Source: Gymnodinialimonas phycosphaerae (GTDB lineage: Bacteria; Pseudomonadota; Alphaproteobacteria; Rhodobacterales; Rhodobacteraceae). Taken from it: DNA of 64,000 nt. The translations under genes were made by a program, and so were the position numbers. Below, in pieces: positions 6,860 through 38,398 of this stretch (its first letter is position 1; every line of letters starts with the position of its first letter). Below the pieces are notes generated by a model that made no database searches, had not been told where the DNA came from, and worked only from the letters and a program-made list of their open reading frames with translations. The DNA is taken from contig NZ_JAIMBW010000001.1 of NCBI RefSeq assembly GCF_019195455.1, positions 3,686,001 to 3,750,000 on the forward strand, given 5' to 3'.

Positions 6860-8190
6860 AGCCGCTTACTTGCTTCAAGGCCTATGACATTCGCGGGCGG
6901 CTTGGTGTCGATCTGGATGAAGACGTCGCCTATCGCATTGGCCGTGCCTTTGCGCAGGCTCTGGACGCGAAGACGGTCGTGCTTGGCCGCGCATGTGGCG
7001 CGGGGTTTGACGGACAAAGGTTGCAGCGTGCTTGACCTTGGGTTGTCGGGCACGGAAGAGATGTACTTCGCCACCTCGCATTTCGGCGCGGATGGGGGGA
7101 TTTGCGTCACCGCCTCGCACAAGCCGATTGATTACAATGGGATGAAGATGGTGCGTACGGGTTCTGCTCCGGTGGGGCAGGCGACCGGGCTGGCGCAGAT
7201 CAAGACGCTGGCCGAGGCAAGAGCCTTTGAGGCGGCACCTGAGCGCGGTACCTTGTCCGATATCGCCGAGGAGGCCCGCGCAGCTTACGTGGCGCGGATC
7301 TGTGGCTTTGCCGATGTACCCACCCTCAAGCCCCTGAGAATTCTGGTCAACGCAGGTCACGGTGCGGCGGCGCCAACGTTTGACGCCATCGCGGCACGTC
7401 TGGCCGCCCTTGGCGTCCCCCGACATTCGAGCGTCTGTTCCACACCCCCGATGGCACCTTTCCGCAAAGCATTCCGAATCCTCTATTGCCCGAAAACCGC
7501 CCCGCGACGGCCGATGCGGTCCGGGCCTTTGGCGCGGATTTCGGGGTGGCGTGGGATGGGGATTTCGACCGGTGCTTTTTCTTCGACCACACCGGCGCCT
7601 TCATCGACGGCGAATATGTCGTGGGCCTTCTGGCCAAGGCCTTTCTGATTCAGGAACCCGGTGCGACAATCATCCATGACGGCCGGGTGATCTGGAACAC
7701 GCAAGACATCGTGGCGCGGGCGGGCGGGCGCAGTGTGCAGACCCGCACCGGCCATACCTTCATCAAGCAAGCGCTGCGCGATGAAGACGCCGTCTACGGC
7801 GGCGAGATGTCGGCCCATCACTATTTTCGCGACTTCGTGTGCTGCGATAGCGGCATGATTCTCTGGGTGCTGGTGGCGAACCTTGTCAGTCGTGGCGGCG
7901 CGCTGGCCGATCTTGTGGCCGATCGGAAGGCGGCCTTCCCGTCCTCTGGCGAAATCAACTTCACCCTTGAGGACCCGCAAGCCGCCGTGGATCGCGTCCG
8001 CGCGGCGTTCGAGGGCGAGGCGCGGGCCATTGATCATCTGGACGGAGACAGTTTCGATTTCGGCACCTGGCGATTCAATCTGCGCCGCTCCAACACGGAA
8101 CCGATGGTGCGCCTGAATGTCGAAGCGCGCGGAGACGCGGAACTGGTGGCCGTCGGCGTGGCGCGCGTGATGGCGGTTTTATTGTCGTGA
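6856..8190 (+). pseudogene. manB: phosphomannomutase, disrupted by start loss, deletion and frameshift
   Basis: Frame 1 reads [20 protein letters not shown] from a CTG at 6856, where an ATG overlapping the manC stop would be expected. At about 6982-6991 (cttggccgcg) the homology jumps from frame 1 (TVVLGR) to frame 2 ([13 protein letters not shown]); the residues expected between them are missing, so there is an internal deletion. The phosphoserine loop reads TASHKP instead of the family TASHNP. At about 7410-7426 it jumps back to frame 1 ([14 protein letters not shown]) and runs through the metal loop DGDFDR to 8190. Several independent lesions show a dead gene. Confidence 0.9.
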
Positions 8191-9563: not shown

Positions 9564-10628
9564 TCAGTGGTCGAGGTATTCGACCGTGATCTTGTCCCCG
9601 ATGGGCAGAGCCTGACAGCTGAGGACCATGCCTTGGGCAACCTCATAATCCTCTAACGCATGGTTGGTGATCATCTGTGCCTCGCCCTCCGTCACCTTGC
9701 ACATGCAGGTCGAGCAGACACCGGCCTGGCACGCGTAGGGCGCATCAAGGCCCGCACGCAGGGCGGCGGCAAGGAGGGTCTCACCGGGGGCGACGGCGAC
9801 CTCTTGCGCGGTCCCGTCCACGATGATCGTCGCAGTCGTTTGAGTGGCGGCATCTTCGGGCGCATGGCTTTGCGGGAGACGGCCTTGTTGGGTGGCCGCC
9901 GCGAAAAGCTCATATTTGATGGCGTCGCGGGCCATTCCGTGGTGGGCGAGGCGGTCCGCGATGGTTTCCATCGCAGGTTCCGGCCCGCAGATGAAGGCGG
10001 CATCGGCTGTGTCGACATCAACCCACTGGGCAAACATGGCGTCCAGCTTCGCCGCGTCGATGCGGCCGGTGAAGAGGTCGATGCCCGTGGGGTCGTTCTT
10101 GAGGATATGGACGATCGTGAGGCGCGTGAGGTTCTCGTTCTTGAGGTCCTCCAACTCCTCCCGAAACATGACGTCACGGGCGGTGCGATTGGCGTAGATC
10201 AGGGTGAACCGGCTTTTGGGCTCCACGGCGAGGGTGCTGCGCAGGATGGACAAGATCGGTGTGATCCCAGAGCCGATGGCGAAGCCCAGGTAGTGGTTTC
10301 GTGCATCCGGATTCAGCGGGGTATGGAAGCTTCCCATTGGGGAAAGCGCTTCGACGGTGTCGCCGATGGCCAGCGTCTCATTGGCCCAGGTGGAAAAGGC
10401 GCCCCCCGCGACGCGCTTGATCCCAACCTCCAGCGTGCCGTCGGCAACGCCCGCACTGATTGAATAGGCGCGCCGCAGTTCCACGCCGTCGATCACTTGC
10501 CGGAAGGTGAGATACTGCCCTTGCGTGAACGGCAGCGTGGAGCCGTCTTTCGGGACCAACCGGACCGAGACCGCATCGGCGGTGGTGCGGTGGATACCCG
10601 TGACAGTGAGGGGGATGAATTTGGCCAT
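9564..10628 (-). CDS. paaE: phenylacetyl-CoA epoxidase reductase subunit PaaE
   Basis: A 354-residue oxidoreductase that passes electrons from NADPH to the PaaABC(D) epoxidase. The N-terminal FAD-binding part has RAYSIS, the NAD(P) part has GFAIGSGITPILSIL, and the C-terminal plant-type ferredoxin domain has CQAGVCSTCMCKV for the 2Fe-2S cluster. It is the last gene of the paaA-to-paaE run and starts directly after the paaD stop. Length is typical of the family. Confidence 0.95.
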   Translation of the reverse strand: MAKFIPLTVTGIHRTTADAVSVRLVPKDGSTLPFTQGQYLTFRQVIDGVELRRAYSISAGVADGTLEVGIKRVAGGAFSTWANETLAIGDTVEALSPMGSFHTPLNPDARNHYLGFAIGSGITPILSILRSTLAVEPKSRFTLIYANRTARDVMFREELEDLKNENLTRLTIVHILKNDPTGIDLFTGRIDAAKLDAMFAQWVDVDTADAAFICGPEPAMETIADRLAHHGMARDAIKYELFAAATQQGRLPQSHAPEDAATQTTATIIVDGTAQEVAVAPGETLLAAALRAGLDAPYACQAGVCSTCMCKVTEGEAQMITNHALEDYEVAQGMVLSCQALPIGDKITVEYLDH

Positions 10629-15232: not shown

Positions 15233-15673
15233 CTATTCCTCGAACAGGGTGCCACCGATGGCGCGGGAGGCACCTCGGAACAGGGCGACCGTGTCGCCGG
15301 TTTGATTGGTGACGGTGACGTCGGTGATGCCGGAGCGGCCCTTGAGCGTCGTTTCGACGGCGGTGGCGGTGAGTGTGTCGCCCAAGCGAACCGGGGCGAG
15401 GAAACTGATCGTGTTGTGTTGCGCGACCGTGGCTGCGTTGCGCGAATTGCACGCGAAGGCGAAAGCGCTGTCGGCAAGCATGAACGTGACGCCGCCGTGG
15501 CCGATGCCGTGACCGTTGCAGTGGTCTTCGCGAATCCTGAGGGAAAGAGTGGCGGTACCCTCATCGATATGGGTGATCTCCATGCCGACCCAGGTCGAGG
15601 CACGGTCCCCCTCCCACATGGCCGCGGCGCTTTTCTGGGCGCGGTCCTTCGGTGTCATGGAACTTGTGGTCAT
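15233..15673 (-). CDS. paaI: PaaI-type acyl-CoA thioesterase
   Basis: A 146-residue hot-dog thioesterase. The signature HCNGHGIGHGGVTFMLADSAFAFACNS holds the catalytic Asp region of the PaaI family. Such enzymes hydrolyse stalled hydroxyphenylacetyl-CoA or oxepin-type dead ends and release CoA. It is the first gene of the paaI-paaK pair and is divergent from paaZ, sharing a 118-bp promoter region. Confidence 0.92.
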   Translation of the reverse strand: MTTSSMTPKDRAQKSAAAMWEGDRASTWVGMEITHIDEGTATLSLRIREDHCNGHGIGHGGVTFMLADSAFAFACNSRNAATVAQHNTISFLAPVRLGDTLTATAVETTLKGRSGITDVTVTNQTGDTVALFRGASRAIGGTLFEE

Positions 15674-34145: not shown

Positions 34146-35039
34146 ATGTCCAGCGAAGACCGCCATCCCCCTGTCGCGTTAGATGCTTCCATCCTTGCGT
34201 TGCAGGGTCGCGTCGGCGACCGCGTGCGCGGTGCGCGTACGGCACGGGGCATGTCGCGGCGCGTGTTGTCCGAGGTCTCGGGCGTATCGCCGCGCTACCT
34301 TGCGCAGTTGGAAGGGGGCGAGGGCAACATTTCCATCGGGCTGTTGTTTCGGGTCGCCGAGGCGTTGGGCGTTTCGATGGAAATGCTCATTTCCCCCGGT
34401 GACTTGACCGCCGAAGCCCGGCGCATGGCAGAGGCTTTCGTGGGTGCCGATCTGGCCACGCAAGCGCAGGTCCGCACGCTTTTGTCCGGGGCGGCGACGA
34501 AGGCCGGGCGGGTATGCCTGATCGGTTTGCGGGGTGCGGGAAAGTCGACCCTTGGCGCGGCGGCGGCCAAGGCGCTGGACGTACCCTTCATCGAGTTGAA
34601 CCGCGCCATCGAGGCGGCGGGTGGCATGCCGATCAGCGAAATCATGGGGCTTTATGGTCCCGAGGGGTATCGGCAGCTGGAGGCCGACGCCCTCAACAAG
34701 ATCGTGGCCGAGCAGGACCGCGTGGTGGTTGCGGTAGCGGGCGGAATCGTTGGTGATTCACAGACTTTTGAACGCCTGCTGGACCGGTTTCACACGGTGT
34801 GGCTCAAGGCCTCGCCGGAAGAACACATGGCCCGGGTGCGCGCACAGGGCGACACGCGCCCGATGGAAGGCAACCCGCAAGCGATGGCGCAATTGCGCCT
34901 GATCCTGACCAGCCGAGAGACCGAGTACGCCCGCGCCGATGCGGTTCTGGACACCGGCGGGCAAGGTGTTTCCGCGTCGCTTGCCGCACTGTTGGCGTTG
35001 ATCGATCGCAACCGATTCATTCCAAAGGACATGCCATGA
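34146..35039 (+). CDS. boxR: BoxR/BzdR-type regulator with shikimate-kinase-like domain
   Basis: A 297-residue fusion. Residues 22-85 are an XRE helix-turn-helix (RTARGMSRRVLSEVSGVSPR, EGGEGNISIGLLFRVAEALG). Residues from about 120 are a shikimate-kinase-like sensor domain with P-loop GLRGAGKSTLG (127-137). BzdR and BoxR repress benzoyl-CoA genes and are released by benzoyl-CoA binding to this domain. It starts 4 nt after the thioesterase stop and overlaps the next gene by ATGA. Confidence 0.95.
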   Translation: MSSEDRHPPVALDASILALQGRVGDRVRGARTARGMSRRVLSEVSGVSPRYLAQLEGGEGNISIGLLFRVAEALGVSMEMLISPGDLTAEARRMAEAFVGADLATQAQVRTLLSGAATKAGRVCLIGLRGAGKSTLGAAAAKALDVPFIELNRAIEAAGGMPISEIMGLYGPEGYRQLEADALNKIVAEQDRVVVAVAGGIVGDSQTFERLLDRFHTVWLKASPEEHMARVRAQGDTRPMEGNPQAMAQLRLILTSRETEYARADAVLDTGGQGVSASLAALLALIDRNRFIPKDMP

Positions 35040-37099
35040 GCGTTCGCTGTATCCAAGACGGTCTGACGGGCTTCGTCACCCTCGACAATCCGCCGGTGAA
35101 CGCCATTGGACGCGAGATGCGGCAAGGGTTGCTGGAGGCGGTGGCATGGGCCGAGGGGCTGAACCTCGACCGGGTGATCGTGACCGGTGCAGGGCGAGCC
35201 TTTGCGGCCGGTGCCGACGCTAAGGAATTCGACGGCCCGCCACTGGAGCCGTATTTGCCCGATGTGCTCGACGCGATCGAGCGGTCGTTCGTGCCGTGGA
35301 TCGCCGCGATTAACGGCGTGGCACTGGGCGGCGGGGCCGAGATCGCGCTGGCGTGCCGAATGCGCATCATGGGGCCAGGGGCGCAGATCGGCCTGCCCGA
35401 GGTCACGCTTGGTGTGATCCCCGGCGCGGGCGGCACCCAGCGCGCGATGCGGCTTTGTGGGTTGGAGACGGCGTTGGAGTTGATCGCCTTCGGCAAGCCA
35501 ATGGGCGCCAAGGCGGCTTTGGCGGCGGGCTTGGTTCATGCCGTTGAAGACGATCCGGTGGAGGCCGCTGATATGGTCAATACGGAAGAACTGCTTTGCG
35601 TGGTGCCGACGTGGGAACTCCCGGCGCCCGAGATGGACGTGGCCGCGTTCTCAGCGGTCCGGGAAAATCTGGCGAAGCGGTCGCCGGGGCAGATCGCGCC
35701 GCACCGCGCGGTGGAGGTAATGGAGGCCGGTCTGGGGCTGGACTTCGCGGAGGCCATGGCGCTGGAGCGGGCCACGTTTCTGGATCTGAAAAGCGGTGAC
35801 CAGTCTCGTGCCCTACGGCATATGTTTTTCAGCGAGCGGGCGGCGAAGGCGCCTGCGGATTTGCCCGCCGCGCCCCAGATCACTCAGGTCGCGGTGGTCG
35901 GCGGCGGCACAATGGGGGCGGGTATCGCCTACGCCTGCCTGTCGGTCGGACTGTCCGTGGTATTGCTGGAAACAGACGCCGATGGTGTTGCGCGGGCGAC
36001 GGAAAATGTCGAACGGTTGATCGTGGCGGGGCTCAAGCGGGGGCGGTTGGACGACAGCAGCGCTGAGGTGTTGCGCGCGCGGCTGGTGATCACCGACGAT
36101 TACGGGGCGGCCTCCGGGTCGAGCCTTGCCATTGAGGCGGCGTTTGAGGCGATGGAGGTTAAGAAAGAGATCTTCGCCAAACTCGATGCAGCCCTGCCCG
36201 CCGACACCATTCTGGCGACCAACACGTCCTATCTGGACATTGATGAGGTTGCCGCAGGCACGAAGGACCCGTCCCGCGTGTTGGGCCTGCACTTCTTTGC
36301 CCCCGCGCACATCATGCGTCTGCTGGAGATCGTCCAGGGTGCGCAAACCGGCGACCGGGCTTTGGCGATGGGCTTTGGCCTTGCCAAATTACTGAAGAAG
36401 GTGCCTGTTCTGGCCGGTGTTTGCGATGGCTTTATCGGCAATCGTATTTTCAGCCGCTACCGCGAAGAGGCGGACTTCCTGCTGATGGATGGCGCCGTGC
36501 CTTGGGAGGTTGACGAGGTGATGGAGGCCTTTGGCTACGCCATGGGACCCTACGAGGTCGGTGACCTCTCGGGTCTCGACATTGGGTTCGCCAACCGCCG
36601 CAGGCAGGACGCCACGCGTGACCCGAAGCGGCGCTATGTTCCGATCGCCGACCGGATGGTGAATGAGGGGCGCTTGGGTCGGAAGACCAGTGTCGGCTGG
36701 TATCGCTATCCCGGTGGCGGCGGCAAGGTTGTGGACCCTCTGATCGAGGATCTGATCGCGGAGGAAGCCCATTTCGCGGGGGTCACTCGTGCGGAGATTC
36801 CCGATGATGTCGTGCGCGAGCGGTTGCTGCTGGCGATGATCAATGAGGCGGCGAATATCCTGGGTGAAGGCATCGCGCACTCTGCCGCTGACATCGATCT
36901 TGTCACGGTGTTCGGGTATGGCTTCCCCCGTTGGCGCGGTGGCTTGATGCACTTTGCGGATGCATGGGGCGTTGTGGAAATAGTGGAAAAACTGCGCCTG
37001 CTGGAGGCTCAGGATCCGGTGGTTTGGGCGGTCAGCCCGGTGTTGGCGGAATGTGCTGCTGCCGGAATGGCGCTGACGGATTGGCGCGCCAAGGGCTGA
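35036..37099 (+). CDS. fused enoyl-CoA hydratase / 3-hydroxyacyl-CoA dehydrogenase
   Basis: A 687-residue FadB/FadJ-like protein. The N-terminal crotonase domain has GAGRAFAAGADAKEF and NGVALGGGAEIALACRM. A Rossmann domain starts near residue 282 (VAVVGGGTMGAGIAYACLS), followed by two 3HCDH C-terminal domains (GNRIFSRYREEADFLLMDGA; GFPRWRGGLMHFADAWG). It could carry 3,4-dehydroadipyl-CoA to 3-oxoadipyl-CoA (hydration, then oxidation), linking Box to the thiolase. No paaF, paaG or paaH gene is present, so it may serve the Paa route as well. Last gene of the operon. Confidence 0.93.
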   Translation: MSVRCIQDGLTGFVTLDNPPVNAIGREMRQGLLEAVAWAEGLNLDRVIVTGAGRAFAAGADAKEFDGPPLEPYLPDVLDAIERSFVPWIAAINGVALGGGAEIALACRMRIMGPGAQIGLPEVTLGVIPGAGGTQRAMRLCGLETALELIAFGKPMGAKAALAAGLVHAVEDDPVEAADMVNTEELLCVVPTWELPAPEMDVAAFSAVRENLAKRSPGQIAPHRAVEVMEAGLGLDFAEAMALERATFLDLKSGDQSRALRHMFFSERAAKAPADLPAAPQITQVAVVGGGTMGAGIAYACLSVGLSVVLLETDADGVARATENVERLIVAGLKRGRLDDSSAEVLRARLVITDDYGAASGSSLAIEAAFEAMEVKKEIFAKLDAALPADTILATNTSYLDIDEVAAGTKDPSRVLGLHFFAPAHIMRLLEIVQGAQTGDRALAMGFGLAKLLKKVPVLAGVCDGFIGNRIFSRYREEADFLLMDGAVPWEVDEVMEAFGYAMGPYEVGDLSGLDIGFANRRRQDATRDPKRRYVPIADRMVNEGRLGRKTSVGWYRYPGGGGKVVDPLIEDLIAEEAHFAGVTRAEIPDDVVRERLLLAMINEAANILGEGIAHSAADIDLVTVFGYGFPRWRGGLMHFADAWGVVEIVEKLRLLEAQDPVVWAVSPVLAECAAAGMALTDWRAKG

Positions 37100-37188
37100 A
37101 AATTCCTTGCAAGGAATTTTCCAAAGCCTTGCAAGGCTTTGGTTACCAGGCTTTTGCAAAAGCCTGTTCAGACCCTTGCGAGGGTCTG
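37099..37188. repeat. run of four consecutive palindromes between convergent genes
   Basis: Palindrome 1 (37099-37120, 22 bp) is perfect, with arm AAAATTCCTTG. Palindrome 2 (37121-37142, 22 bp) abuts it and is perfect, with arm CCAAAGCCTTG. Palindrome 3 (37148-37165, 18 bp) is perfect, with arm AGGCTTTTG. Palindrome 4 (37169-37188, 20 bp) has an 8-bp stem CAGACCCT/AGGGTCTG around TTGCGA-like centre TGCG. The first three share the centre TTGCAA. The run fills the whole gap between the two stop codons. Confidence 0.95.
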
Positions 37189-37189
37189 T

Positions 37190-38398
37190 TTACCGCACGC
37201 GGATCGGCAGTGACGTCCATCCGCGAAACCGTGCAAGGCCGAGCCGTTTCCCGGGGCCGTTTTGGGCAAGTCGCGGAAAGCGCTGCACGAAGTCGCCCAA
37301 GGCGATCTTTCCCTCCATTCGCGCCAGCGACGCGCCAAGGCAGACGTGGATGCCGGTGATGAAGGCGATGTGCGGATTGGGTTTTCGGCTGATATCCAGG
37401 CGGTCTGGGTTGGAAAAGACCTCGGGATCGCGGTTGGCGGCGGCAATGGAGGTGTGGATGTAGGTGCCTTTGCGCACCAAGGTGCCGGAGGGCAGGGTGA
37501 CGTCCTCACTGGCCAACCGATTGCCGATCTGCAGCGGGCTTTCCATCCGCAGAGTTTCCTCCACCGTCGTGCCGATCAGGGAGGGGTCCTCCTTGAGGCG
37601 GCGATGCTCTTCCGGATTGCACATCAGCAGTGAAATGGCATTGCCGACGAAGGAGGTCGTCGTTTCGTGCCCGGCGTTGAGCAGGAAGATACAATTCTGG
37701 ATCAGCTCTTCCTGGGTCAGGGTTCGGCCGTCATGCTCTCCAAAAATCAGCGCCTCCAGCACTTCTCCTTCGGCGGCTGCATCGGGGTGCGCGCGGCGGT
37801 GGTTGATCAACTCGTCCAGGATCGCGCCGAATTCCACAACGGCGCGGTTACCAGCGTCCATCTGGGCTTGCGACACCACCGGGTCAAGCGCACCGAGAAT
37901 AGCGGTGGAATACCCCCTCAACTGGGTGCGGTAGGCTTCGGGCACGCCAAGCATGATAGAGATGATCTCCGTCGGCAGCATCATCGCGAAATCGGCGATC
38001 AAGTCCAGCTCGCCAAGATCCTCGACCCGGTCCAGCAGGCGCGCCACGATCCGCTCGATCGCGCGTTCCATTTCTTTCAGTTTCCGCGGTGTGAAAGCCC
38101 CGGCGATCAGTTTGCGCACGACCGTGTGGTAAGGGGGGTCGTTGAAGATCAGCGACGTCGTGTGGTGGAGCTTCAGAGGGCATTCGCCGAATTTCTTCCC
38201 GAAGGCCTCGGTCTTGTCCGACAGCATGTCGGGGGCCCTGTAGGTGGCGAGGCAATCGTCATGGCGCGTCAGGAAAACCGACCCGTCTGCGTTGCGATGC
38301 ACCGGTGCTGCGCGGCGCAAGGCTGCCAACGTCGAATAGGGATCCTCGATGAAGGCGGCGTCGATCTTGTTGAGATCGAATCCTGAGATGTCCGTCAT
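37190..38398 (-). CDS. cytochrome P450
   Basis: A 402-residue soluble bacterial P450. The start MTDISGFDLNKIDAAF is preceded by GGGAG; the longer frame to 38563 adds 55 arginine-rich residues without homology. The I-helix oxygen-binding motif is LLNAGHETTTSF, the K-helix ExxR is EETLRMES, and the heme-Cys loop is FITGIHVCLGASLARME. It lacks a dedicated ferredoxin gene nearby. Substrate is unknown. It is divergent from the B12-domain regulator and convergent with the box operon. Confidence 0.93.
   Translation of the reverse strand: MTDISGFDLNKIDAAFIEDPYSTLAALRRAAPVHRNADGSVFLTRHDDCLATYRAPDMLSDKTEAFGKKFGECPLKLHHTTSLIFNDPPYHTVVRKLIAGAFTPRKLKEMERAIERIVARLLDRVEDLGELDLIADFAMMLPTEIISIMLGVPEAYRTQLRGYSTAILGALDPVVSQAQMDAGNRAVVEFGAILDELINHRRAHPDAAAEGEVLEALIFGEHDGRTLTQEELIQNCIFLLNAGHETTTSFVGNAISLLMCNPEEHRRLKEDPSLIGTTVEETLRMESPLQIGNRLASEDVTLPSGTLVRKGTYIHTSIAAANRDPEVFSNPDRLDISRKPNPHIAFITGIHVCLGASLARMEGKIALGDFVQRFPRLAQNGPGKRLGLARFRGWTSLPIRVR

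Follow-up and report, generated by a model that had tools for sequence, protein, structure and literature searches.

The window analysed here, i.e., the whole stretch of 64,000 nucleotides taken from the genome of Gymnodinialimonas phycosphaerae, contains two convergent genes, both named from the initial annotation and by eye, whose 3' ends abut a row of four palindromes. The features of this junction are the following:

35036..37099, plus strand: enoyl-CoA hydratase/3-hydroxyacyl-CoA dehydrogenase-type gene
37098..37121, no strand: palindrome unit 1, GAAAATTCCTTGCAAGGAATTTTC, 24 bp, perfect, zero-loop, centre TTGCAA
37121..37142, no strand: palindrome unit 2, CCAAAGCCTTGCAAGGCTTTGG, 22 bp, perfect, zero-loop, centre TTGCAA
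37147..37166, no strand: palindrome unit 3, CAGGCTTTTGCAAAAGCCTG, 20 bp, perfect, zero-loop, centre TTGCAA
37169..37188, no strand: palindrome unit 4, CAGACCCTTGCGAGGGTCTG, arms of 8 bp and a 4-nt loop TGCG
37190..38398, minus strand: cytochrome P450-type gene, convergent to the former

The stop codon of the hydratase/dehydrogenase gene occupies positions 37097-37099, its last two bases falling inside unit 1, and that of the P450 gene positions 37190-37192 on the minus strand; the fourth unit has the near-centre TTGCGA, with a single mismatch beside the centre. The initial annotation had placed TTGCAA-centred perfect palindromes and an 8-bp stem-loop between the two stops, and this is confirmed at 37098-37188; concerning the lengths it gave (22, 22 and 18 bp), the second is right and the first and the third were undercounted by 2 bp (24 and 20 bp). 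Three palindromes with arms of 10-12 are thus packed into 69 bp; in 30 simulations under a third-order Markov model of the window, a mean of 0.2 palindromes per 64 kb reached arms of 10, and none exceeded them. The core CCTTGCAAGG occurs twice in the window, a count reached by none of 100 dinucleotide shuffles. On RNA folding, either strand of the array forms four hairpins (-44.4 and -46.0 kcal/mol), with stems of 8-10 bp, UGCA-type loops and linkers of 0-5 nt.

A dispersed cassette at the 3' ends of genes

The array of the window is one copy of a dispersed cassette family. Indeed, the G. phycosphaerae genome (4.32 Mb) contains 50 copies of CCTTGCAAGG and eight of the reversed control; for YYTTGCAARR the corresponding counts are 154 and 39. 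The window and the stretches taken from the same genome contain 28 arrays of one to four scored units (ten with four, eight with three, seven with two and three with one), a tally that excludes three lone hairpins of other kinds and in which the window array enters as three units, its fourth being unscored. The arm sequences of these arrays vary, and the centre is TTGCAA in most of them. Eleven other 20-kb stretches away from the core sites (220 kb) harbor 20 hairpins with arms of at least 9, none of which is centred on TTGCAA; four places with CCTTGCAAGG (in L017, L019, L027 and L037) are isolated matches without an array. One stretch of this genome, L043, carries three four-unit cassettes inside 8 kb (7861-7950, 10239-10326 and 15422-15509), two of which are near-identical in slot content (3 differences in 28 positions).

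The position of the arrays relative to genes, called with a simple codon-usage caller, was analyzed on 111 arrays (102 distinct, nine being duplicates) from the same genome, its relatives and the Rhodobacterales loci among the matches listed, of which 42 of 43 were used, L090 being left out since it ends at its array. Forty places given by the stricter pattern were taken, one in G005 and three in G007 being left out, and G007 arrays entered by other routes. Since the arrays beyond the G. phycosphaerae genome were found via an exact two-unit pattern, this set favors multi-unit arrays and perfect inner pairs. Fifty-three arrays lie between co-directional genes, 46 between convergent ones and two between divergent ones, four have a called neighbour on only one side and six overlap a called gene; the background of gene gaps in the G. 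phycosphaerae stretches is 385 co-directional, 92 convergent and 108 divergent. All 53 co-directional arrays begin from -4 to 36 nt past the upstream stop codon, and a stop codon lies at most 34 nt away from each of the 46 convergent ones. The search for many copies near gene ends, proposed by the initial annotation, was therefore positive on the basis of the genome counts, the 28 arrays and their placement.

The units follow each other at a pitch, centre to centre, of 22 bp (147) or 23 bp (66) in 213 of 236 spacings, and 12 of the 236 are 28-65 bp long, leaving wider gaps. The half-site derived from 323 perfect units is C/A-A-R-R-N-Y-Y-T-T-G, with A at -9 in 94% of them, only C or T at -4, C or T at -5 in 99% and loose preferences only at -6 to -8. 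In the 43 compact four-unit arrays, the CCTTG end is found in 83 of 86 inner and in 19 of 86 outer units, and the inner units mostly combine one CACGCC-type with one CAGAGCC- or CAAAGCC-type. This inner/outer slot order is common to non-orthologous cassettes (mean distance 9.6 versus 11.9 when slots are shuffled, the lowest of 200 shuffles being 11.5). Units of the same array are never identical, neither overall (0 of 258 pairs, 12.8 expected) nor when adjacent (0 of 236, 8.7 expected) nor as the two inner units of one cassette (0 of 43, against 6.4 under a slot-specific null); for outer pairs the value of 0 against a null of 1.0 is not significant. Such an avoidance of identical neighbours is what would be expected if each hairpin had to fold alone. 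A simple tandem duplication is ruled out by the absence of identical adjacent units. The motif GCGC lies 0-4 nt from the array edges (46 occurrences on the left and 52 on the right of 101 arrays). An outer stem closing the array through its GC-rich flanks was rejected, the mean longest complementarity being 4.74 versus 4.90 in shuffled flank pairs. In a few loci (about L044:5154-5172, about L036:10049-10069, L202 and L073), a GC-rich potential hairpin of the GCGCGC type was observed between two palindrome pairs.

Symmetry kept during sequence change

The comparison of orthologous arrays (52 array pairs, 1407 pair comparisons) revealed 173 compensated and 8 one-sided changes and 1226 unchanged pairs, counts made pairwise and hence not of independent events; the linkers differ at 207 of 362 sites. 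In nine orthologous 87-bp arrays, changes on both sides affect 10 of 32 pairs (27 such cells), no pair shows a one-sided standard change and only 2 of 288 cells are unpaired (99.3% paired). Four of five covariation measures computed on these nine arrays were matched by none of 500 shuffles; the fifth (further pair types) shows no excess, 340 of the 500 shuffles attaining its value of 14. The idea of a selection for symmetry itself, put forward in the initial annotation, is therefore supported by the covariation between orthologous arrays.

The symmetry appears stricter than RNA pairing would demand. A mismatch scan, blind to units with more than one outer mismatch, found 170 units of co-directional arrays with all nine pairs perfect; in the imperfect ones, read on the sense strand, two stem mismatches were G-U and two were T-T. 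Four stem mismatches were seen in convergent and unassigned arrays, none of them G-U on the strand read. One and the same hairpin finder gave 216 G-U among 1576 pairs for the ordinary 3' hairpins of these genomes, but only 15 among 1305 for co-directional arrays, where G-U is thus about tenfold rarer, and 5 among 1006 for convergent arrays. Part of the ordinary set must be due to chance, since its shuffled controls give 93 of 438. In each array two units have perfect inner pairs by construction of the seed pattern, so that the argument rests on the outer pairs and on the other units. In the terminators of Bacillus cereus, 4.02% of ancestral stem pairs are reported as G-U, which is described as the usual intermediate (PMC5381666). 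Arrays used in one direction should tolerate G-U, yet few are found, which suggests that the symmetry of the DNA itself is constrained, over and above the pairing of the RNA. The half-site consensus points the same way, and the source of such an extra constraint on the DNA might be a dimeric reader, template-switch copying or the use of the array in antisense.

On the whole, the position of the arrays, their predicted RNA folds and the covariation suggest hairpins acting in both directions at mRNA 3' ends. We therefore favor, with a probability of roughly 0.55, the interpretation that the array is a dispersed cassette, ideally of about 90 bp with four mutually different palindromes of 20-24 bp at a pitch of 22-23 bp directly after stop codons, which most likely serves as a two-way cluster of hairpins by which mRNA 3' ends are formed or protected. 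According to this interpretation, the cassette, transcribed from either side, would give a row of four hairpins able to stop or slow RNA polymerase and/or to block 3'-to-5' exonucleases, and each convergent mRNA would thereby gain a defined and protected end without running into the neighbour gene. The complementarity of the arms would be held perfect by selection on both strands, and template switching during replication, by re-copying one arm onto the other, probably helps to keep the symmetry. The initial suggestion of a bidirectional terminator array fits as far as position is concerned, but not in the canonical sense: no co-directional array (0 of 49) is followed by at least four T in the next 8 nt (mean 0.8), which makes a canonical terminator unlikely, and a terminator scan found no canonical terminator at the window array. 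More likely would be a terminator of the hairpin-cluster kind, or rho-dependent termination followed by a barrier to exonucleases. Counting against the favored interpretation are a half-site consensus beyond what pairing alone needs, the scarcity of G-U, the lack of a canonical terminator and the array-free junction of G011.

Some of these features would also fit the binding sites for a dimeric protein suggested in the initial annotation, namely an array of operator type that a homodimer recognises in double-stranded form and that works as an insulator, a roadblock terminator or a nucleoid organiser. Indeed, with the pitch found in 213 of 236 spacings, consecutive dimers would come to lie on about the same helix face, the half-site consensus has the form CARRNYYTTG, and G-U pairs are few even in one-direction arrays. 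We consider this unlikely, however, because the degenerate positions -6 to -8 are still symmetric, and the independent binding of half-sites needs no such symmetry; moreover, the central dinucleotide varies (TTCGAA in G007, G003 and one G009 array, and several others elsewhere) and the sites are at 3' ends rather than at promoters.

Distribution, gain and loss

Within the genus (13 genomes), seven genomes harbor many TTGCAA pairs and six none or one. The forward matches of the pair pattern are 41 in G000, 28 in G012, 24 in G011, 15 in G003, 14 in G007, 35 in G002 and 42 in G005; in the six other genomes there is no forward match and only one on the reverse strand (G001), controls giving 0-2. 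The stricter pattern was found in 7 of 101 relatives, all seven in the genus, and in 4 of 394 sampled genomes of the family (G305 and G398 by pattern match only). Named carriers among the matches listed (at least 80 loci) belong mostly to Roseicyclus, Roseibacterium and unclassified Rhodobacterales, and a single locus is from Nioella. No plasmid copies were detected at E 1e-5, and the two matches in viral contigs are both pairs of GC-rich palindromes within called genes. Among the matches listed, 37 of 80 are lookalikes from outside Rhodobacterales, mostly from Bacteroidales, and were treated as unrelated; the 15 inspected have core repeats without a row of varied symmetric arms. In Bacteroidaceae Horse_feces99 and relatives (L056, L058, L059, L063, L068 and others), CCTTGCAAGGA repeats with a spacing of about 22 bp were observed; they come from an unrelated phylum and seem to be another repeat whose pitch and core are similar.

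Carrier and non-carrier status is defined here by the TTGCAA form alone. TTCGAA-centred arrays are present in G007 and G003, and several other matches of the TTCGAA search correspond to one conserved coding sequence. A two-unit TTCGAA array was also seen just after a called gene in G009, which lacks the TTGCAA form (L301, around 1490-1550); the family may be wider than the TTGCAA search reveals. In a midpoint-rooted tree of three proteins, six carriers form one clade and G003 falls inside a group of non-carriers (support 0.98-1.0, its exact sister 0.296), which implies that gain or loss happened more than once or that arrays moved.

At the window junction the array has four units in G000 and two in G007, and none was found in seven other genomes in which both genes are adjacent (G011, G009, G010, G006, G001, G004 and G008); the stops of the two genes are just 2 bp apart in G011, and the lack of an array in that genome makes the array dispensable there. 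In G004 the junction carries one hairpin that is unrelated to the array. A gene judged by eye to be of the glutamine-synthetase type is followed by an array in G000 and G011 and by a TTCGAA version in G003. At the 3' end of the same gene, seven relatives (L278-L283 and L287) have a different palindrome, TTGGGGGCtgGCCCCCAA, in one to three copies replacing the TTGCAA array, each arm being one base longer in G012; this looks like a second family of 3'-end palindromes. Lastly, a four-unit cassette of about 91 bp, with a mismatched outer pair in two units, is present in G005 and absent at the same site in G002 (flanks about 93% identical) and in the more distant G012, which is best read as a gain en bloc.

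This case bears on the possibility that the arrays are small mobile or parasitic palindromic cassettes, lacking any host function and found at 3' ends since insertion there is harmless. The filled and empty sites, the slot order common to non-orthologous cassettes, the GCGC near both edges and the patchy occurrence within the genus are all in agreement with it. Nevertheless, the G005 cassette has no evident target duplication (one case, by eye) and no close donor in the four other genomes searched (the longest match is 77% over 87 bp, G005 itself being outside the search), a RAYT-type transposase (PF01797) was not seen in five of the seven carriers, and arrays at orthologous places have been retained, with compensated changes, in different species, something not expected of a useless insert; this makes the idea improbable. 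The particular form of it suggested in the initial annotation, a palindromic element inserting next to itself, is not supported, for adjacent units are never identical and the sole case of gain or loss involves a whole four-unit cassette. Finally, it is very improbable that the palindromes are mutational relics, perfect only via template-switch repair of mismatched hairpins in replication and without selection: template switching is described as homogenising inverted repeats (PMC7202029, PMC8604942) and would agree with the few one-sided changes (8 versus 173) and G-U intermediates, but the 3'-end location, the pitch, the common half-site consensus and the avoidance of identical neighbours would all be left unexplained.

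Relation to known elements and biological meaning

REP/BIME and REPIN elements are tagged by GTAG and associated with RAYTs. The arrays resemble them in being short extragenic palindromes in many copies, and differ in the unit-to-unit variation of the arms, with up to four or five different units. Identity with a REP/RAYT system was rejected: GTAG lies within 8 nt of only 2 of 204 array edges (edges only, inner linkers being outside the count), and PF01797 (Y1_Tnp) was not found in five of the seven carriers, the G. phycosphaerae genome included, whereas G003 and G007 each give one weak match, which in G007 barely passes the cut-off. Membership of an Rfam family was likewise rejected, since the best score in the window interval searched, 36900-37400, is 19.9 bits, under the gathering score of 70. 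We found no description of a family of TTGCAA palindrome arrays in the open-access literature, which is weak evidence of absence.

The CGTC-tagged palindromic repeats, described as commonest in alphaproteobacteria, with loops of 4-5 nt, no dedicated transposase and often as heterodimers (PMC3733652), share with the arrays, as far as that description goes, the loop size and the lack of a dedicated transposase; however, the arrays have a fixed pitch and a different centre, and the CGTC tag, unpaired at one end in those repeats, lies within 8 nt of only 9 of 204 edges. Canonical bidirectional rho-independent terminators are similar in having a hairpin between convergent genes, both strands usable and compensatory evolution (PMC5381666). 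The arrays do place a stable hairpin just after the stop, but they lack the U-rich tract, contain multiple hairpins and show about tenfold fewer G-U pairs than the ordinary 3' hairpins of their genomes. In layout the arrays resemble the hairpin-cluster intrinsic terminators proposed from RNA-seq by Gupta and Pal (2021, PMC8355165), described as several hairpins less than 15 nt apart, mostly at most 80 nt from the stop codon, for which a poly-U is not required. The arrays have the same spacing and distance from stops, except for the 12 wider gaps among 236 spacings. Unlike those clusters in their general description, they have a common centre and half-site, a fixed pitch and Watson-Crick pairing on both strands, and they represent a dispersed, lineage-specific cassette known from sequence rather than from 3'-end mapping.

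Going beyond the two-way 3'-end hairpin element that we favor, one might speculate, quite tentatively, that what is maintained in the four orthogonal palindromes is the exact symmetry of the DNA and not RNA pairing alone, either through a dedicated reader protein or because one arm is continually copied onto the other; the dispersing cassette could then constitute a lineage-specific, two-way punctuation of gene ends free of U-tracts.

To our knowledge, transcript ending without U-tracts is poorly mapped in GC-rich alphaproteobacteria. The family described here provides recognisable and alignable gene-end elements, 28 arrays of which are present in the genome of G. phycosphaerae itself, and the coexistence of carriers and non-carriers in one genus, together with a filled and an empty site between close relatives, makes both function and evolution directly testable. 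The functional question concerns termination or exonuclease blocking at the gene ends that bear an array, and the evolutionary one how perfect symmetry is retained as the sequence of a palindrome evolves.
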